Source: Tetramitus jugosus
Lineage: Eukaryota; Heterolobosea; Eutetramitea; Acrasida; Vahlkampfiidae
Direction: 5' to 3'
NCBI GenBank assembly: GCA_937625935.1
Contig: OW569357.1
Coordinates: 491,001 to 555,000 of the forward strand
DNA: 64,000 bases
Shown here: positions 1,490 to 24,788 of the stretch, piece by piece
How positions within the stretch are numbered: the first letter of the stretch is position 1
Layout of the letters: every line of letters starts with the position of its first letter
The notes under the pieces: generated by a model
Database searches by the model: none
What the model saw: only the letters and a program-made list of their open reading frames with translations
Told to the model about the DNA's origin: nothing
Made by a program: the position numbers and the translations under genes

Positions 1490-2053
1490 TCAGAAATGAC
1501 CACTACTGCCACCACTTCTACCCTTCTTCTTCAGTGAATTCATCTTTTTTTGTTGAATTCTTTCTCGATCGCTCTTTGCACTTCTGCCGAGCTCATGCTC
1601 CATGACTTGCACAGGTTCATAAGCCGCTTTCAAATACTCTCTCAATCGTTCAATTGCATCCTGCATATTATCACTCTGTGTTCGATGAACCGTGCTCTGT
1701 ATCACTATTTCTCCTTGTTTATTCATCTTTGTAGCATAGAGCTCTTTGAGTCTAGCTTTCACCTCTTCTGGTATCCAATCAGCAGAATCAACATTGAACC
1801 GTAGATCCACCTTTGTGTTCACCTTGTTCACATTTTGTCCTCCTGGCCCGCCAGAACGTGCAAAGGAGAATTGTAGTTTCTCCGTTGGTATTTTTCCGTC
1901 GAAAGAGAGGGTCGAGTTGGATTGTTTGATGACCTTGTACCGATCCAGTAGGATTGTTTGTTGGGAACAATGATACAATCTCTGTTTTCCATGGATCAGC
2001 GATGATTCCGAATGCTTGTTGATTAGGCACCTCAAAGACAACGATCGTCGCAT
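1490..2053 (-). CDS. MRPL58: Mitochondrial ICT1/ArfB-type peptidyl-tRNA hydrolase (class I release-factor fold)
   Basis: 187-aa member of the ICT1/MRPL58-ArfB group, which releases stalled peptidyl-tRNA from mitochondrial ribosomes. The catalytic GGQ lies in SGGPGGQNVNKVNTKV at residues ~67-82, and the C-terminus is a basic tail (RIQQKKMNSLKKKGRSG), as used by ArfB/ICT1 to occupy the empty mRNA channel. The release-factor codon-recognition domain is absent, consistent with this group and not mtRF1. Start chosen at ATG 2053 because MRRSLSLRCLINKHSE looks like a mitochondrial presequence; an upstream ATG at 2194 would overlap the divergent neighbour's start and adds a hydrophobic, Cys-rich, non-conserved extension. 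It shares a ~115-bp divergent promoter with the gene beginning at 2169. Confidence 0.88.
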   Translation of the reverse strand: MRRSLSLRCLINKHSESSLIHGKQRLYHCSQQTILLDRYKVIKQSNSTLSFDGKIPTEKLQFSFARSGGPGGQNVNKVNTKVDLRFNVDSADWIPEEVKARLKELYATKMNKQGEIVIQSTVHRTQSDNMQDAIERLREYLKAAYEPVQVMEHELGRSAKSDRERIQQKKMNSLKKKGRSGGSSGHF

Positions 2054-2168
2054 TTTTGTTTCTGTTGCCAGCGTTTCAGTTCCATCGCCGACTGGAATCA
2101 GAAAATTCAGAGCGCAGCACAGATTCCGACAAAAAAAATCGAAGGTTCGACAGGACCAAAAAACCAAC

Positions 2169-4688
2169 ATGTCAACAACAAGCAGAAATACCATGGATCA
2201 CAGTCCGATAACGAACAATACTGGTAGCAGTGTTGGTGATGAAGATCCCACACGATCAACAACAAACATTCATTTATTCAACAACAATGTTGACACTACT
2301 GAAACGACAAGCCATCATCATCACAACAATAATAACAACACACATTCGACTTCGGATTACGATGAAGATGAAGAAGAAGATGCCAATGACGCAGATTATG
2401 AATCATCCAACAATGAAAGTGACTTTGATGAAGATCATCATTCACCAATCATCATTACTACGACTTCTCAACAACAACAGCAGCATGGCTACCTCACAAA
2501 CAAGATGTATGATGATTTGAATCGTCGAAATGATGTACCAGAGGAAAAACGTGTGACTTTTGAACAATGTGCTGACGACTTACTCATACGCAACAGTAGT
2601 ATAGATGATCATTATCACCATCATCATAGCATGTCTGATCCATTTCACATTTCTGATGTTCAAGTCATTCCCGAAGTGACATTGATGGAGGATGAAAATG
2701 ATGATGAACAGGCAATTGCATTATCGTTGCACAAGAACAGCACTAACAATGGCAAGAATTCAATCATGACCAGCAATGGAAACAGTGCTAGTGGTGAAAT
2801 TACAATTCAAATACCATCGTTGCCTTCAGAGACAACCATGTCTCAAATGGATTCTCTGTATGATTTTGGAACTCCACCTTCGTCTGGTGGAGACAAGGAG
2901 CGAATGAATCATTTGAAGAGTCTCATGTTGGCTGATTTGTCTGTTGGTCACGTTCCCTTGACTCAATTCTCTGTGCCATCCACGATTGTTCTTCCATCTG
3001 AGCAGCAAAAGGCCAGAAGCTATGCGATTGGGACAAAGGTTCGACGGAGAGATCGAATGATTCACGAGTCATTTCGTCAGAGGAGACAAAAGCAACGAAC
3101 AAAGCAGAGTGAGAGGCGGTCGGGTAGGGGAATCGGAGAGAGTGTTGATGGTATAAGCACATTGATGGACTCCGGTGATAGAAGAGGCGGCTTTGCGAAT
3201 AGAGATAGAGAAAGTGAGAGGTATTCAATCGATGAAACAGCAGAGTTATCTCTTCCTTCCAACAGTACTTGTATACCGACATCGAGAAGCATAGAGCAGT
3301 TGGATCGTATGGAGTCTCGCTCCTCTCGCTTTGGTTTCACAAAAAGGCATCCATGGGCCAGAAAAATTGCGGATTTCATGCTAGGCGGTCCCTTGTGGAC
3401 AAAGACAAAGCGTTTGAAACGATCAACCAGTTTACAAGATGTTGGAAAGGAGGATGAGAAGGAAGTTCAGGCCACCATCATTGATTTGGGCTATGCGCTC
3501 TCAATTTACGGCACCCCAGCTCACAGATTGGAGTATCATTTGGCACTAGTTGCCAGTTATTATGCTCTGAATTGTACGACATATTCGACACCGAATGGAA
3601 TTTGGATCACATTTGGAAACTATGTAACCGATACGACAACAACGACTCACTTTATTAAGATTCGAGGAGCTTCACTCAACTTGTCCAAGCTATGTTTATT
3701 GGACGAGGTTGCAGAGAAGATTGCGAGTGGTACTATGGCGATTTCTGAAGCTCGAAAGGCAATCAAAGAGGTGATTGAACTAGAGCCAGTGTACAGCAAC
3801 TTTATCTTTATTATTTTCTCTTGCTTTGTTCAAGCAGGAATGTTTAGTGTTTTCTTTGCTGCTAATTTTGGTGAGATATTGGCGTCATTTGCTGCTGGAT
3901 TAATAGTGGGTGCATTGAGTGTTCTTGCATCCAAGTATGAAGCACTCGCTCAAGTGAATACGATTGTATGTGCTCTTGCTGCAGGATTTGTTGGATTGTT
4001 GTTCCGAATCATTATGTCATCCATTGTACCGATATCAGTGTTTGTAGTATCACTCAGTGGAGTCATTTCGTTACTACCTGGATTGACATTTACGTTGGCT
4101 ATTTCAGAATTGTCATCAAGGAATTTGTTGTCCGGATCTACCAGATTGATCTCTGCGTTCGTAACAACGATACAGATTGGATTTGGAGTTCTCGTATCAG
4201 ACAGAGCAAGTCAATATCTATCAATCATAGCATCGGTGCCCGAGGTTGTTACTCGGCATTACCATTCGGTCTTTACGCTGGCTGGCATTATTCCAGTTGT
4301 TGTCATGGCCACAGTGATATCATTGAAGGCACCAAAGTACCCTATTGCATTTGTGTTCATTTTGCTAGATGCATATGCTGCTTTCTTTTGCACGTATTAT
4401 GCGACGAGTTACTTTGGTGTCGAAGTAGGAACAATGCTGGGCTCGTTTGTTGTTGGATTTATTTCAAATGTGTTTGCCGCGGTTTCAGATCATCCAGGTA
4501 TTGTTGTGTCAGCCTGTGGCATTATTTTCTGTCTCCCTGGAGCCCTTGGAAAGAACTCGGCTCGAATCCTCATTGAAGGAGATCCCACTCGTTTTGTTCT
4601 CGAGGTTGTCATCATTGGAATATCGCTTACAGTTGGTCTCATGTTGAGTGATGCGTTTGGATTCAAGAGAAAGAAGTTGAACTTGTAA
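2169..4688 (+). CDS. ThrE/DUF1212 family membrane protein (PRM10-like)
   Basis: 839-aa protein of the threonine/serine-exporter-like family (PF06738/PF12821), called PRM10 in yeast, where its transport role is not settled. Residues 1 to ~430 are low-complexity (acidic, His, Asn and Ser runs) and presumably cytosolic. The conserved N-terminal ThrE block begins near 435 (LSIYGTPAHRLEYHL, YSTPNGIWITFG, IRGASLNLSKL) and is followed by ~10 hydrophobic segments to the C-terminus, with helix motifs such as LPGLTFTLAISELSSRN and the final LPGALGKNSAR. Start is the ATG at 2169 (MSTTSRNTMDH); the open frame upstream lies in the promoter shared with the ICT1-like gene. Substrate cannot be read from sequence. 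Confidence 0.85.
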   Translation: MSTTSRNTMDHSPITNNTGSSVGDEDPTRSTTNIHLFNNNVDTTETTSHHHHNNNNNTHSTSDYDEDEEEDANDADYESSNNESDFDEDHHSPIIITTTSQQQQQHGYLTNKMYDDLNRRNDVPEEKRVTFEQCADDLLIRNSSIDDHYHHHHSMSDPFHISDVQVIPEVTLMEDENDDEQAIALSLHKNSTNNGKNSIMTSNGNSASGEITIQIPSLPSETTMSQMDSLYDFGTPPSSGGDKERMNHLKSLMLADLSVGHVPLTQFSVPSTIVLPSEQQKARSYAIGTKVRRRDRMIHESFRQRRQKQRTKQSERRSGRGIGESVDGISTLMDSGDRRGGFANRDRESERYSIDETAELSLPSNSTCIPTSRSIEQLDRMESRSSRFGFTKRHPWARKIADFMLGGPLWTKTKRLKRSTSLQDVGKEDEKEVQATIIDLGYALSIYGTPAHRLEYHLALVASYYALNCTTYSTPNGIWITFGNYVTDTTTTTHFIKIRGASLNLSKLCLLDEVAEKIASGTMAISEARKAIKEVIELEPVYSNFIFIIFSCFVQAGMFSVFFAANFGEILASFAAGLIVGALSVLASKYEALAQVNTIVCALAAGFVGLLFRIIMSSIVPISVFVVSLSGVISLLPGLTFTLAISELSSRNLLSGSTRLISAFVTTIQIGFGVLVSDRASQYLSIIASVPEVVTRHYHSVFTLAGIIPVVVMATVISLKAPKYPIAFVFILLDAYAAFFCTYYATSYFGVEVGTMLGSFVVGFISNVFAAVSDHPGIVVSACGIIFCLPGALGKNSARILIEGDPTRFVLEVVIIGISLTVGLMLSDAFGFKRKKLNL

Positions 4689-4798: not shown

Positions 4799-6586
4799 AT
4801 GATAAGAAGAAGGATCATTCGAATTCGTTTGGGATATCCCATTCATAATAAACACAGGAGCAATGCCATGAAACGTGTCTTTTCTTCGTCCATGAAAACC
4901 GTAAAAGAAGAAAGGGAGTGCACTTTGGAAGAAGGAGTGGATCAGTATCCTTCGCAAGAACAACTCAAAACTTGGAAGTTGGAAAGTGAAGCAAAGAACA
5001 AGGCCTTTGCTCGATCTCTGAATGCCTACAACCTGTTCTTGTGGATGAAGCCCAATGATGCCCTTATCAGATTCAAAAAGGGTCGCATGCTCCTACAGAA
5101 TGGTTACTTGAATGAGGCGATCGAAACATTTCAGTCATCTCTCGAAATTGATGAAAATTACAAGCTATCACATGTTGCTCTGGGATCGGCATATCAGATG
5201 AAGAATTGTAATGGTGTAGCGCTGGAACACTATGTCAAGGCATTGGAAATCGATCCAAACTATAGTCTTGCTCACTTTGGGATCGCTGTATTGTATTCCA
5301 AGCTGCACAAGAATCATGAATCGTTGAATCATTTCCAGAAAGCACTGAGATTGGACTATGAGCAGAAAGTATCTTTTAATACCGTGAGGATGGAGGGGCA
5401 GTACAAGGATCTACTCTATAAAATGTATCAAGACGCAGTGCATGACCCCAGTAAGGTTTTATCGAATATTTACCTCGAAGAGGATTACAAGTACATTGAG
5501 TCAGAAATAACCGGCGATCATACAGTGATTATTCCAGACAAAAGTAAATGCCGCTCGTTGTTCTTGGACTACAAGTCTAAAGCTGGAGATATTGTCGCGC
5601 CAGGAGATGAGATATCATCGGTTGAAATGGAAAAGGTATGCATTAGCTTGTATGCACCAGAAGCAGCCCTCATTACAGATGTGGTGGACAATCCTGAATA
5701 CTCAGTAATCCATCCAGGAACGCCTGTTGTAAAGTACATACCGCTGCAAGTCCGAAAGCTGAAGCCTATCGGACATGGCGACTTCTTACCAACGATACAG
5801 GATGTATCAGCGGAAGATGCGGCAAACATTATCAAAACGGCCAACAATGTTGTAGTTTTGAGCGGTTCTGGCTTATCCAAAGAGAGTGGCCTGAAAACAA
5901 GAAAGGATATGTGGACCACCTTGTCGAGAGAGAAGTATGTCGGCAATTGGAATTTCACACAGGAACCTGAAAGATTATGGGAGTTAGTCAAGGACTTTCT
6001 AGGTGAAGCAAATTTTGATCCTAAACCCAATCCTGCTCACTATGCAGTTGCTGATCTGGAAAAGATGGGATATGTGAAGGCAGTTATTACCCAGAATGTT
6101 GATAATTTGCACCAAGTTTCAGGTAGCACGAATGTCATTGAGATGCATGGAACTTTGTCTGAGACAATCTGTACTACCTGTGATGTTGTCCATGGGCGTT
6201 GTATGGATTATTTGAATAGTGATTTTCCTCCCAAGTGTCCATCATTCCGCAACAAGGAGTGTTGCGTGAATACCTCCAATACAACTGGTATTCTAAAGCC
6301 AAATGTTATCTTATTTGGTGATCTCGTCGATTCAGACAAACTCAAGAAGGCATATGAACTCGTGATGAATTGTGATGTATTGTTAGTTGTAGGAACAGCT
6401 GCTGATGTAACACCTTGCTCAGAACTGCCAGCAATAGTCAGTAAGAACGGTGGTACAATCATTGAAGTGAAGAGGAATCATTCAAGACTTGCCAACCATC
6501 AACTCAAGAACCATAAGTTTGTCTCCGGTGAAGCAGCCACAATTTTACCTGCGATTGTGAATCATATCTCAAAAGGCCGTGACTAA
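4799..6586 (+). CDS. TPR - lipoyl-like domain - sirtuin fusion, probably mitochondrial
   Basis: 595-aa, three-part protein. The N-terminus (MIRRRIIRIRLGYPIHNKHR) is Arg-rich without acids, like a mitochondrial presequence, which decides this start over the open frame from 4703. Residues ~86-186 are three TPR units (NGYLNEAIETFQSSLEIDEN; HYVKALEIDPNYSLAH; HFQKALRLDYE). Residues ~240-313 resemble a biotinyl/lipoyl domain: AGDIVAPGDEISSVEMEKV, YAPEAALITDVV, HPGTPVVKY, with Lys ~279 of VEMEK where lipoyl domains have the modified Lys (ETDK). Residues ~344-590 are a Sir2 NAD-dependent deacylase: LSGSGLSKESG nucleotide loop, TQNVDNLH, EMHGT (catalytic His ~450), Cys pairs at ~458/461 and ~480/488 for zinc, GILKPNVILFGD and VGTAADVTP. 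The usual GIPDFR after the first motif is changed to GLKTRKD. Family assignments are firm for TPR and Sir2, moderate for lipoyl; its substrate is inferred. Confidence 0.85.
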   Translation: MIRRRIIRIRLGYPIHNKHRSNAMKRVFSSSMKTVKEERECTLEEGVDQYPSQEQLKTWKLESEAKNKAFARSLNAYNLFLWMKPNDALIRFKKGRMLLQNGYLNEAIETFQSSLEIDENYKLSHVALGSAYQMKNCNGVALEHYVKALEIDPNYSLAHFGIAVLYSKLHKNHESLNHFQKALRLDYEQKVSFNTVRMEGQYKDLLYKMYQDAVHDPSKVLSNIYLEEDYKYIESEITGDHTVIIPDKSKCRSLFLDYKSKAGDIVAPGDEISSVEMEKVCISLYAPEAALITDVVDNPEYSVIHPGTPVVKYIPLQVRKLKPIGHGDFLPTIQDVSAEDAANIIKTANNVVVLSGSGLSKESGLKTRKDMWTTLSREKYVGNWNFTQEPERLWELVKDFLGEANFDPKPNPAHYAVADLEKMGYVKAVITQNVDNLHQVSGSTNVIEMHGTLSETICTTCDVVHGRCMDYLNSDFPPKCPSFRNKECCVNTSNTTGILKPNVILFGDLVDSDKLKKAYELVMNCDVLLVVGTAADVTPCSELPAIVSKNGGTIIEVKRNHSRLANHQLKNHKFVSGEAATILPAIVNHISKGRD

Positions 6587-7125: not shown

Positions 7126-7149
7126 GCTCAGCACCGTCAGGTGCTGAGC
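7126..7149 (-). other. Perfect 10-bp stem-loop spanning the ORF2 stop codon
   Basis: Arms 7126..7135 and 7140..7149 (GCTCAGCACC / GGTGCTGAGC) enclose a 4-nt loop that contains the TGA stop of the ORF2 fragment on the minus strand. Its position near the 3' end suggests a structure recognised by the element's reverse transcriptase, as in other LINEs with 3' stem-loops. That role is inferred. Confidence 0.6.
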
Positions 7150-7736
7150 AGTGCTTCACTCCTCTTCACGACAGAATTAATGTATACATTGTGAAGCGCC
7201 TTGACACAGGCCCTCTTCATGGAATCCACCATGCATCTTATCACCTTCTCTGCCTCCCTTTGTTTCCTGCCAGAGAGCACCATTCCATCTAATAGCTCTT
7301 TCCTGAATCCTCCCTCTTTGCCCATTAGTCCCTCTAACAGTTCTTCAGAGGATCGCTTGTCACTCAGTGTTTGTATCTTGCCCTTTTCATATATCGTATC
7401 GTCAAACCAGAAAACAATTTTTGCTGAATCCGGTAGCGTCAACCTATCCAATTTAGCTTTCATCTCTTCTACGAGTTTCCTCCTGGCCATAATGGCAACT
7501 TCACACTCAACCAACAGATGTAAAATGCTCTCCGGTGCAGCACCACAGTTTAGACACTTTTCATCTAAACCGGCATTGTACAACTTTCTCAACACCATCT
7601 TAGTGTGCAGTGTTCCACTCCTGACTTGATGATAGAACCAAAGTTCCTTCCTTTCTAAGCCGAATGGCCACTTCAGAAATTGGTTCCATTCCTTTTCCTT
7701 TGACATTACAGATTCCAAGGACCAATTCTTGTTCAT
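7137..7736 (-). pseudogene. Retrotransposon ORF2, 3' fragment (zinc-binding region after the RT)
   Basis: About 199 aa from the first ATG, but the same frame stays open further upstream, so the true 5' limit is the deletion junction between ~7740 and 7920. The fragment carries the zf-RVT pattern found C-terminal to LINE reverse transcriptases: LWFYHQVRSGTLHTKM, then CLNCGAAPESILHLLVEC (Cys-x2-Cys...His-x4-Cys). The rest is a charged helical tail. No RT catalytic YxDD, endonuclease or RNase H motif is present, so it cannot act alone. Confidence 0.8.
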
Positions 7737-7922
7737 ACCAATTGCTTCAGCTCTAGCCTTCTTAAACTCTTCCGTCAGACCTTCCCTGAAATTTTTTTTA
7801 ATACAACAAATGGTGCGTGAGCACCACGTTGCGGAACTTTTATTTTTCTTTTGTTTGAGAGCAGGCTTGCCTACTCACAATTGTCTAACATGGTGTGGTG
7901 CTTGCCCAGTGGAGTGGCAGGC

Positions 7923-9131
7923 CTACGCAACAGGATTCATTCTCTTCTTGGAATGTTGTTTTGATCCCTTCTTCAGGGATTCGTTGCGAGGGCCTCCACT
8001 ACCGACTGGAGCACCACTGGTGAGGTCAGATGGCTCCGTAGTCCTAGCCAGTTGGTAGGACCTACGGAGAGCACCTGACTTGATACTGGCCAACCTGGCC
8101 GGGATCTTGTTAGCAGCAGTGTCACCAACGGTGACACGTGCTGATCGTTTCTTGTTCTCGTTGAGTTGGGGACTCTGTAACTCGCAGTCGGGGTTACAGA
8201 GGTCCAACTCAACTGGATCCTCTTGGGTGGTTGTGCTTCTTGCACGGTCCACCATGATTGCTCGGGCAGCAATCTCCTTCTTGGCTCTCTTGAACACCTC
8301 GGAGGTGTTCAATACTAGCTCGAGGATGGCTCTGTTACGAGCATCCTCATCCATGGTGTTGTTGGTTGGCTCTTGGGTGACCGTAGTGGCGGGGTTGGAC
8401 TCCGGCACGATCGACTCCCAGTCGTCGGTCGTAGACGGAGTCGAAGGTTCGAATTCGGAGATTCGGTCCGGCGTCCTTGGAGACGGGGACGCGAAGGGAA
8501 TCCGGTTGACGGAAGCCATTTCTTTTAACACACTGACTTGGTGGCGCAGGTCGTCCACCACAGCCAGGAGTTCTTGATACATCTTGGTCAGCCTCTTGCT
8601 GACAGCCTTGACAGGGTCACGTGGGCGTGGAAGGAAGCGTTTTGCTTCCACCTCCACTGGCATGGCTTGAACGTTCCGAAGCAAAGCTTCGGCATACGTT
8701 TCAGACTCCATCACAACAAAGGCAGTGTTGTGCTTCTTGAGCACATTCTTGACCTTTGTTGTGCCGAGCATGGTAAGACGGAGGACGACCTTCTTGGCAC
8801 AATCAACGTTGTGCTTGAGTGCTGCCTTGCAGCCACTCATCTTCTTGTTGCGGTTGAAGGATTCAACAAATGGGTAAATGTTGTCATCAACAACAGTTAC
8901 CCACGCAACAAACCTCTTGGGGCCCTTCTTGATGACTTGGACCCTGGTGAGCAAATCACCAAAATCCAAGCCAATCTTCTTGGCCAAGGCAGCTTTTGGA
9001 GAGTCATCGCACTTTCCAGTGATGATGACCTCCTTGCTGCTTGGAGCAGTTCCTCTTGGTGCTGTGGTCCACACAGCATAGCGTGGATTCTCATACTCAC
9101 GAACAACAGGGGTGTGTGTTCGTTTTTTCAT
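7923..9131 (-). CDS. Retrotransposon ORF1 protein
   Basis: 402-aa open frame starting 13 nt inside the 5' end of the element. The N-terminal ~190 residues are basic and mixed alpha/beta (RFVAWVTVVDDNIYPFVES, NTAFVVMESETYAEAL), consistent with an RNA-binding fold, followed by a short helical/coiled-coil stretch (VSKRLTKMYQELLAVVDDLR) and a Ser/Thr/Pro-rich, basic C-terminus. By position it is the ORF1 nucleic-acid-binding protein of a two-ORF non-LTR element; I do not recognise a named family. The frame is intact, which argues for recent insertion. Confidence 0.75.
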   Translation of the reverse strand: MKKRTHTPVVREYENPRYAVWTTAPRGTAPSSKEVIITGKCDDSPKAALAKKIGLDFGDLLTRVQVIKKGPKRFVAWVTVVDDNIYPFVESFNRNKKMSGCKAALKHNVDCAKKVVLRLTMLGTTKVKNVLKKHNTAFVVMESETYAEALLRNVQAMPVEVEAKRFLPRPRDPVKAVSKRLTKMYQELLAVVDDLRHQVSVLKEMASVNRIPFASPSPRTPDRISEFEPSTPSTTDDWESIVPESNPATTVTQEPTNNTMDEDARNRAILELVLNTSEVFKRAKKEIAARAIMVDRARSTTTQEDPVELDLCNPDCELQSPQLNENKKRSARVTVGDTAANKIPARLASIKSGALRRSYQLARTTEPSDLTSGAPVGSGGPRNESLKKGSKQHSKKRMNPVA

Positions 9132-23061: not shown

Positions 23062-24788
23062 CTGTGAATTCTCGGTTACAAGCAACACTCGCTTACTAGC
23101 AACAGCATCTGTTTGGCGACAAAATTAGCCCGGAAAAACTTTGTCCTCTCCTTTTTAAGCTGAAGGTCCCCTGTCTTGTCTTAACCAATACACAACAAAC
23201 GAAATCATGTCTTATCCATTGCGCTCGGCAGTCAATCAACATTCACAATTCCAATCTGTCACTGGTCTTCCTTACGATAATGAACAAGTATCAATGCCGT
23301 TCTTTCCAAAGAAGAAAGCAAGAAAACAATATGATGTTAGTACTAAGCTAAAGTACCTAAAGCTAGCAGAGTTATTTGGCGTTTCGTACGTAGTCTCAAC
23401 AAAGGGTGTCTCGAGGTCTCTGTTGTCTAGGTGGAAGAAACAAGTGCCTCAGTATCTGTTGGCGAAGTCTGAACGCAAGATGTCCAAGAAGAGGATACGT
23501 TCAGCGTCTCATTCCACAGTGTTTACAGAGGACCAAGAGAAACAGATATTTGACAAGATTCAGAAACTCAGAGATGCTATGATACCAGTAAGCGGTCCAA
23601 TGGTCAAGATCTTCGCGCTACAAGTGGCTCGAGAACATCAAATTCAAGACTTCGATGCATCAAATGGATTCGTAACACGGTTCAGAAAAAGGTGGAACCT
23701 GACTCTTCGACGAGGAACAAAGCGCTCTCCAAAGCTCGATAGCGACATCATTAGAAAGCTTGAAGAGATGCAAAGAGATGTGTACAACAAATGTATCCAT
23801 CATGATATTGATTATATTTGTAATATTGATGAAACACCTATTGTTTATGATCTCATGTACGATCATACCTTAGCCAATTGTGGAGATGCTGAGGTTTTGA
23901 TAGCAAAAGTCAAGTCTGCAAAGAAGCGTATTACAAATTGTCTCGGAATATTACTACCTGTTCCTTGGAAACCTGACTTGCCACAAGTATTCAAATGCAA
24001 ACCGATGATGATTTTCAAAGGTATGACACCAAAATGCCTTAATGATGTCTCCAGGGTGCACAAAGAAGACACCACGATATTGATTCGACATCAGAAGAAA
24101 GCTTGGAACGATGCAAATCTGTATGTCGATTTCTTACAACATTCATTGCCAGATGAAATCGTTGGACCCAATAGGAGACAAGACTATAAGATTCTAGTTG
24201 TTCATGACAATGTGGAGTTCCACTTAGCCACACAAGTCAGTGATCTATGTAAGAAGGACTATGGCATTGAACCTCATTGTTTACCACCGAATGCTACGGC
24301 TATCTGCCAACCATTAGATGTTGCCATCAACAGACCATTCAAGGACGGTATGAGAAAAAAACTTATGGAGAATCTGGTCGATAGTTACACTGGTGGAGAG
24401 ATTTTCATCTCCAAGAATGATTTGATTTCGTGGGGAAAAGATGTGTGGTACAACTCAATAAGTAATGATACAATCAAGAAATCTTTCCTCACTTGTGCGC
24501 TGGGAGTGTCCCCTGTAGATAAAGAACAACCAATCTACTGGAAGAGACTCAGGTCATTGCAAAGTCAGCTCCAAGATGAAACTCTACCAAGTATTGCATC
24601 TTTGACTCAGAACTTGTTTAATGGCAACGTGTGGGATGACTCTAATCATCCAAGTGTGTTTTTGTACACTCCAGAGAGATTCAATGTTCCAGTAAACTAC
24701 ATTTAGCTGCCCAAATAAAGAAGCCCGAACCTCCGCCGCAGAGAAATCACAAAGCACGAAGGTGTTGCTTGTAACCGAGAATTCACAG
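23062..24788 (+). mobile_element. Pogo-like (Tc1/mariner superfamily) DNA transposon, apparently complete
   Basis: 1727-bp element with perfect 27-bp terminal inverted repeats at 23062..23088 and 24762..24788 (both start CTGTGAATTCTCGG when read inward), flanked by TA at 23060..23061 and 24789..24790, the superfamily's target duplication. It carries one uninterrupted transposase ORF. Identical TIRs and an intact ORF suggest recent mobility. It sits between the GST and S33-like hydrolase genes. Confidence 0.93.
23207..24706 (+). CDS. Pogo/Tigger-type DDE transposase
   Basis: 499 aa. The N-terminus has helix-turn-helix/CENP-B-like DNA-binding features (STKLKYLKLAELFGVS, VSRSLLSRWKKQV; then VFTEDQEKQIFDKIQKLRD and GFVTRFRKRWNLTLRR). 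The catalytic core is DDE_1-like: NIDETPI (Asp 208), LVVHDNVEFH (Asp 334) and QPLDVAINRPFK (Asp 371), about 36 residues between the last two. C-HCLPPNATAICQPLD is the characteristic run-up to the third acid. All three acids are present, so activity is plausible. Confidence 0.92.
   Translation: MSYPLRSAVNQHSQFQSVTGLPYDNEQVSMPFFPKKKARKQYDVSTKLKYLKLAELFGVSYVVSTKGVSRSLLSRWKKQVPQYLLAKSERKMSKKRIRSASHSTVFTEDQEKQIFDKIQKLRDAMIPVSGPMVKIFALQVAREHQIQDFDASNGFVTRFRKRWNLTLRRGTKRSPKLDSDIIRKLEEMQRDVYNKCIHHDIDYICNIDETPIVYDLMYDHTLANCGDAEVLIAKVKSAKKRITNCLGILLPVPWKPDLPQVFKCKPMMIFKGMTPKCLNDVSRVHKEDTTILIRHQKKAWNDANLYVDFLQHSLPDEIVGPNRRQDYKILVVHDNVEFHLATQVSDLCKKDYGIEPHCLPPNATAICQPLDVAINRPFKDGMRKKLMENLVDSYTGGEIFISKNDLISWGKDVWYNSISNDTIKKSFLTCALGVSPVDKEQPIYWKRLRSLQSQLQDETLPSIASLTQNLFNGNVWDDSNHPSVFLYTPERFNVPVNYI

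Follow-up and report, generated by a model that had tools for sequence, protein, structure and literature searches.

A gene on the forward strand of the stretch analyzed here, 64,000 nucleotides of Tetramitus jugosus DNA (contig OW569357.1, positions 491,001 to 555,000; referred to as the window), codes for a protein that combines a sirtuin, an enzyme that removes chemical groups from proteins, with a lipoyl-like domain, a type of lipoic-acid carrier on which certain sirtuins reportedly act. From the N- to the C-terminus, the protein consists of a presequence-like segment, TPRs, an E2-type lipoyl-like domain and a full SIR2 domain. Comparisons of its amino acid sequence support that the lipoyl-like domain is a captured lipoyl domain of the 2-oxoacid dehydrogenase E2 type that was fused to the sirtuin. 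We propose, with a probability of about one half, that the protein is a nuclear-encoded, probably mitochondrial sirtuin deacylase with a hydrophobic pocket, from a small and divergent clade, which is brought by its lipoyl and TPR parts to the 2-oxoacid dehydrogenases and is docked to, or gated by, lipoyl chemistry. The features are as follows (window coordinates).

4799..6586, + strand: whole coding frame, 595 amino acids plus stop, no intron needed (open reading frame)
4799..4906, + strand: presequence-like segment, residues 1-36 (composition: 10 Arg/Lys and no Asp/Glu in residues 1-35; the first acidic residue is 37)
5009..5368, + strand: TPR region, residues 71-190 (Pfam TPR_2/TPR_11; AlphaFold helices)
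5525..5758, + strand: E2-type lipoyl-like domain, residues 243-320 (sub-threshold Pfam match, relative P0030 over the cut-off, profile comparison, low-confidence model)
5633..5635, + strand: codon of Lys279, candidate lipoyl attachment site in VEMEK (aligns to the turn lysine of the E2 motif ETDKA by ungapped offset)
5801..6574, + strand: SIR2 domain, residues 335-592 (Pfam, matches to solved structures, AlphaFold model and structure search)
5894..5911, + strand: KTRKDM loop, residues 366-371, replacing PxFRGxxGL (alignment of 9 clade members and 116 other sirtuins)
6146..6148, + strand: catalytic His450 of the HG motif (same alignment)
6170..6265, + strand: zinc Cys458, Cys461, Cys480 and Cys489 (same alignment)
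6470..6475, + strand: Lys558-Arg559, the first of which is Asn in 107 of the 116 other sirtuins (same alignment)

The lipoyl-like domain and the N-terminal half

A carrier and a deacylase in one chain had been proposed from the letters alone (the sequence-only reading), and the fusion of an E2-type lipoyl-like domain to a sirtuin is supported by a match in a relative, by profile comparison and by a kept lysine. The relative P0030, which has the same domain order, matched the Biotin_lipoyl profile (PF00364) with 34.3 bits (E 2.1e-8), over the cut-off of 22.1 bits. Under this cut-off were P0034 (20.7 bits), an 87-residue piece of the window protein searched alone (18.1), the second genomic copy of the gene, L006 (17.3), and P0003 (16.8), and P0031 showed no match to PF00364 at E 1. 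When the window protein and L006 were compared by hhalign with the genome's own lipoyl domains of the pyruvate dehydrogenase (PDH) type, the score was 36.1, while the maximum of 200 column shuffles was 22.1. Addition of P0030 and P0031 gave a score of 42.3 and a maximum of 18.1 in 200 shuffles. Of 26 segments slid over the window/L006 pair, the four with starts at 201-257 scored 28-36 and the remaining 22 scored 13.9 or less. A chance match of the lipoyl-like segment was ruled out by the shuffles and the sliding segments. The family segment scored 36.4 against the genome's own biotinyl-type domains, compared to the 42.3 obtained with the PDH-type lipoyl domains, and by sequence the carrier looks like the E2 subtype; H-proteins, which were not compared by profile, are also among the structural matches.

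The lysine that the sequence-only reading had placed in the attachment turn is residue 279, and it is kept in L006, P0030, P0031 and P0034. The turn reads VEMEK in the window protein and VEMDK in L006, and it is canonical-looking in P0030 (ESDKM) and P0034 (ETDKM); the acidic residue preceding Lys279 is kept in both paralogues. The domain resembles the E2 lipoyl domains of pyruvate dehydrogenase in that its profile matches those of the PDH type in the organism's own genome, in the aligned attachment lysine, and in the start of the P0030 lipoyl domain, ITMPSITP. The difference is that here the domain is joined to a sirtuin and not to E2 catalytic and binding domains. A low-confidence AlphaFold model of the isolated segment (mean predicted local distance difference test, pLDDT, of 54) consists of beta strands only and has Lys279 at the turn of a hairpin, after strand 271-277 and before strand 280-285. 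A structure search with this model finds lipoyl, biotinyl and H-protein folds alike. The full-length model has the segment at pLDDT below 50 and does not resolve residues 216-331. The refuting conditions set by the sequence-only reading, on the predicted fold and on Lys279, do not contradict a lipoyl domain, at the low confidence of these models.

The PF00364 match of the whole window protein (residues 255-311, E 0.043) reaches 14.1 bits and, being under the cut-off, is not significant alone; the profile check that had been suggested for this segment thus exceeds the cut-off in P0030 and not in the window protein. The window gene was compared with L006 region by region, and the ratio of nonsynonymous to synonymous substitution rates (dN/dS) was assessed by the Fisher test. 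The ratio was 0.09 for SIR2 (p 3e-30), 0.23 for the TPR region (p 1e-7), 0.35 for the linker at 198-242 (p 0.02) and 0.69 for the lipoyl part at 243-320, the least constrained of the three domains. The last value is not shown to be under 1 because its p is 0.35. Within and next to this part, residues 258-296 around Lys279 had 0.46 (p 0.14) and residues 297-330 had 1.56 (p 0.51). The sirtuin, altered motif included, is under strong purifying selection. What chiefly speaks against a strict carrier role is that no constraint could be detected on the lipoyl part, though Lys279 and the acid before it are kept. The synonymous rate is also lower in the lipoyl part, which may reflect gene conversion or noise.

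These observations bear on another explanation, that the middle segment has a lipoyl-like fold which is in decay or was never modified, and is a mere spacer between domains. The sub-threshold Pfam score and the dN/dS of 0.69 agree with it, as does the alanine of EAALI, a position on the hairpin's far side that is glycine in P0030, P0031 and the E2s. Nevertheless, the lysine and the preceding acidic residue persist in both paralogues, and the turns of P0030 and P0034 are of canonical appearance. We consider a spacer unlikely, but a contender.

The coding frame runs from the ATG at 4799 to the stop at 6584-6586, with 595 codons and no internal stop. Its N-terminus agrees with the presequence that had been read there, as judged on composition alone, and the window protein is probably mitochondrial. 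The earlier count of three TPRs was about right: in the Pfam scan the TPR_2 profile scored 50.8 bits against a cut-off of 27 and marked three stretches, and the full-length AlphaFold model has serial helices over residues 53-188, with block pLDDT values of 79-96 for residues 71-180 and 64 for 181-190.

The altered sirtuin and its clade

The SIR2 profile (PF02146) matched residues 356-539 of the window protein with an E value of 3.5e-33, over the curated cut-off. Among solved structures, the closest in sequence is Plasmodium Sir2A (1e-42), followed by other Sir2 proteins (2e-37), the latter being presumably archaeal. Plasmodium falciparum Sir2A (PfSir2A) is also the best structural match to residues 330-595 of the full-length model. 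Active-site residues were counted in one alignment in which nine members of the clade described below were compared with 116 other sirtuins. His450, Gly451, Gln432, Asn433, Asp435, Cys458, Cys480 and Cys489 are kept in 9/9 clade members and Cys461 in 8/9. The HG and QNxD motifs and the zinc cysteines are present, which confirmed the full Sir2 domain with catalytic histidine and zinc cysteine pairs that had been read from the letters. On the other hand, the PxFRG cofactor loop is changed in the clade, as are the GTS and the Asn that are conserved in the nucleotide pocket of other sirtuins. The Phe/Tyr of the cofactor loop (115/116 others) is Arg in 9/9 members, Ser at position 534 (110/116 others) is Ala in 8/9, and Asn at position 558 (107/116 others) is Lys in 8/9, followed by Arg in 8/9. 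Asp536, present in 9/9, is outside the six commonest letters at that position elsewhere. By fold and profile the protein is a member of the Sir2 family, divergent and not typical. Passages of a study of SirTM describe a conserved Asn258 that contacts the adenine-ribose 2'- and 3'-hydroxyls (PMC4518038). Position 558 probably corresponds to this residue, and a lysine there might alter cofactor choice.

Sirt5 is described, in passages of PMC5686155, as reading carboxylates through a Tyr-x-x-Arg pair. In the other sirtuins Tyr occurs in 62/116 and Arg in 63/116, and the window protein has the hydrophobic residues Val397 and Phe400 at these positions. The title of one PfSir2A structure entry states that the enzyme prefers medium and long chain fatty acyl lysine. 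The lipoyl group is an eight-carbon acyl. The absence of the carboxylate reader, the match to PfSir2A and the size of the lipoyl group together make a lipoyl-type substrate plausible for the window sirtuin.

The altered PDFR motif (KTRKD) noticed in the sequence-only reading is real, since L006 and the metagenomic proteins P0002 and P0003 share KTRK[DE]MW; an assembly error in the loop was excluded on the same grounds. L006 (G000:C44:97525-101076, G000 being the organism's own genome) is a TPR-lipoyl-sirtuin gene of 582 amino acids, 75% identical. The altered loop was found in all nine relatives collected (the window protein, L006, P0002, P0003 and P0030-P0034), where SGLxTR[KQ][ED][LM]W (SSLKTRKDLW in P0030) replaces SGxPxFRGxxGxW. 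In a 125-row tree, the nine members make up one branch with a support of 100/100, in which P0032 and P0033 stand apart from the other seven (99/85), followed by P0034 (remaining six, 100/90); the bootstrap had not settled, so that these figures are approximate, and the tree is arbitrarily rooted. A tree built without the loop and the altered pocket columns, and with half of the other rows, still grouped the nine (SH-aLRT 100) and the seven that bear the lipoyl domain (89). By sequence, the altered-motif sirtuins form a distinct clade. The lipoyl-like domain is present in 7/9 members in two layouts: it is N-terminal in P0034, while in the others it lies between the TPR and SIR2 parts. P0032 and P0033, bacterial-looking in composition and gene form only, have TPR and SIR2 and showed no lipoyl signal. 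The altered loop in these two proteins indicates that the motif is independent of the lipoyl fusion. P0031 (721 amino acids) has an extra C-terminal stretch that is protein kinase-like (Pkinase E 1.8e-4, under the cut-off).

Of the 56 candidates in a protein search, only P0002 and P0003 were recovered with the lipoyl region as the sole query. A genome scan with the clade alignment found the motif in 0/80 relatives, these being the best 80 of at least 591. In an even genome sample of the phylum of the fetched genomes, 4/297 passed E 1e-45, none of the four with the motif; overlapping samples of the same phylum returned the same 4/297 and, at E 1e-52, 0/395. Two further genome searches found ordinary relatives in 12/12 and 8/10 genomes. 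Viral contigs had the motif in 0/8 loci, five of which carry an ordinary TFRD/TFRG loop. The SIR2 search of the own genome gave 14 matches, and the best eight were read as loci; among them, as judged by motif and tree, are an ordinary class III-like sirtuin and SIRT6/7-like ones. Among solved structures, the adenosylhomocysteinase of the organism is nearest to 5v96 (822.5 bits) and 6uk3 (810.6), which are from Naegleria and Acanthamoeba, as would fit an amoeboid protist.

Other sirtuin fusions were seen by precomputed Pfam accession: PF03253, which we take to be the urea transporter family, in P0036, P0037 and P0048; PF04002, presumably RadC-like, in P0044; and PF00520, presumably an ion channel, in P0004 (Effrenium voratum). 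Around the gene, the upstream neighbor at 2016-4688 codes for a ThrE-like membrane protein. On the 3' side, the minus-strand frames at 7137-9131 are retroelement-like by eye (CLNCGAAPESILHLLVEC), and the 402-amino acid frame at 7923-9131 (minus strand) had no Pfam match at 1e-6. A Tc5-type DDE transposase-like frame is found at 23207-24706 (PF03184 3.6e-17, PF03221 2.7e-11).

Lipoate metabolism, proposed mechanism and alternatives

The organism's own genome (26.3 Mb, 56 contigs) has a mitochondrial-type PDH E2 (L089, 685.4 bits against a cut-off of 445) and a second E2-like protein under the same cut-off (L094, 388.8). A 2-oxoglutarate dehydrogenase E2 and a biotin ligase (L101) are over their cut-offs, and a GcvH-like protein is just under (110.6 against 117). 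One LplA/LipB-type ligase, L115, scored 52.9 against 27 with PF21948 and 45.4, far under 280, with the NCBIfam lipoate ligase model. Lipoyl synthase was not found in this genome with TIGR00510 or PF16881; in a control set of 14 genomes, the two models were positive in 12 and 9. If the assembly is near complete, this suggests that the organism scavenges lipoate, and turnover of lipoyl groups would then matter. The genome also has a 222-amino acid frame, L090, on the minus strand of G000:C8 at about 66574-67047. It contains two lipoyl domains of the PDH type (IDTDKA, VETDKA) and a hydrophobic C-terminal tail, but no E2 catalytic domain within the frame, and could represent either a lipoyl protein anchored by its tail or a single exon of some larger gene.

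The domains with Lys279, the intact catalytic core, the clade and the second genomic copy can be read in the sequence, and the mechanism that we propose starts from them. Lys279 would be lipoylated by the LplA-like ligase, and the lipoyl and TPR parts would recruit the sirtuin to the pyruvate and 2-oxoglutarate dehydrogenase complexes. There, the sirtuin would free E2 lysines of lipoyl groups or of other medium-chain acyls, with NAD setting the rate. The lipoyl-lysine in its own chain may, in addition, act as a cis substrate or as an active-site competitor. A precedent for recruitment is that lipoyl domains recruit PDH kinases, as in the binding of PDH kinase by the L2 domain of E2, and complexes of the PDH kinase-L2 type, by entry title, were among the structure-search matches of the isolated lipoyl model. 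This mechanism and the alternatives to it overlap, and their probabilities need not sum to one.

Besides the spacer, four alternatives were considered. The sirtuin may delipoylate its own Lys279 in cis, the lipoyl arm being a built-in NAD-gated switch, which is the idea of the sequence-only reading minus ADP-ribose. Enzyme and candidate substrate share one chain, the lysine is kept in the window protein and four relatives (L006, P0030, P0031 and P0034), and Val397/Phe400 are hydrophobic, but the geometry must differ between P0034 and the other layout, constraint on the lipoyl part is not significant, and the full-length model leaves the mutual placement of the domains unresolved. Such a switch has, in our opinion, about one chance in five. 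It is rather improbable that the nucleotide pocket was rebuilt (Phe lost, Asn replaced by Lys-Arg) for another cofactor such as NADP, or for another reaction. The clade would then be a new subfamily, wired in several eukaryotes to a captured E2 lipoyl arm, in which one chain senses and edits the lipoylation or acylation of 2-oxoacid dehydrogenases in a host seemingly unable to make lipoate. An ADP-ribosyltransferase or NAD hydrolase guided by the lipoyl group, like SirTM with GcvH-L, has a slim chance: the Phe/Tyr of the cofactor loop is lost, and passages of the SIRT4 paper suggest that a lipoyl group could enter the SIRT4 channel from outside as an anchor (PMC5686155), but HG is retained and neither of the SirTM motifs (QG, GVGx[NT]TP) occurs, which makes this version less likely than the cis switch. 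Slimmer still is the chance of a non-catalytic sirtuin fold that senses NAD or a different nucleotide and relays the signal by its TPR and lipoyl contacts, since several cofactor-contact positions changed together in the clade but the His, Asn, Asp and zinc Cys residues are retained and the whole SIR2 domain is strongly constrained (dN/dS 0.09).

Relation to known systems

To our knowledge, the lipoamidases SIRT4, CobB and SrtN carry neither a lipoyl domain nor a TPR in their chains and retain a PxFR-type loop; the window clade differs from them in its shortened loop and changed NAD contacts. Passages of two papers report that these sirtuins remove lipoyl from lysines of 2-oxoacid dehydrogenase E2 and GcvH (PMC5596343, PMC5686155), with a kcat/KM for SIRT4 on lipoyl of 170 +/- 230 for one peptide and 7.7 +/- 1.3 for another (PMC5686155). 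A further link between sirtuins and E2 is a Fusarium sirtuin that, according to passages of PMC8730727, decrotonylates the PDH E2. SirTM, as described in passages of PMC4518038, has QG for HG and the motif GVGx[NT]TP, is tied genetically to the lipoylated carrier GcvH-L and to LplA2, and has a macrodomain partner. The window protein resembles it as a sirtuin linked to a carrier, here a candidate for lipoylation. However, it keeps HG (9/9 in the clade) and has VGTAADVTP instead of GVGx[NT]TP, its carrier is E2-type-looking and not GcvH-type, and carrier and enzyme are in one chain. Membership in SirTM class M was excluded because both motifs are absent, and the SirTM link that had been suggested was not supported. 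The Pfam scan found no macrodomain in the window chain; the rest of the genome was not searched for one. PfSir2A differs in that it keeps an SFRG loop and its solved chains, of 265-290 residues, contain neither lipoyl nor TPR parts.

Sirtuin lipoamidases and the SirTM-GcvH-L system are already known, but fusion of a lipoyl domain into the sirtuin chain was not found described in the open-licence literature (titles and abstract starts; few subscription papers and no bioRxiv preprints were covered). A lipoyl-sirtuin fusion is also absent from the passages retrieved from a review on sirtuins in protozoa (PMC3484402); the loop motif of the clade was not itself searched for in print. The active site of this clade is altered at positions that hardly vary among the 116 other sirtuins of the alignment. 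In our reading, the extent to which sirtuin lipoamidases act on lipoyl proteins in vivo is still open. The fusion, found in two layouts and in three or four diverged sequences, is independent evidence that sirtuins and lipoyl domains work together, and a system contained in one chain lets the reaction between them be tested directly.
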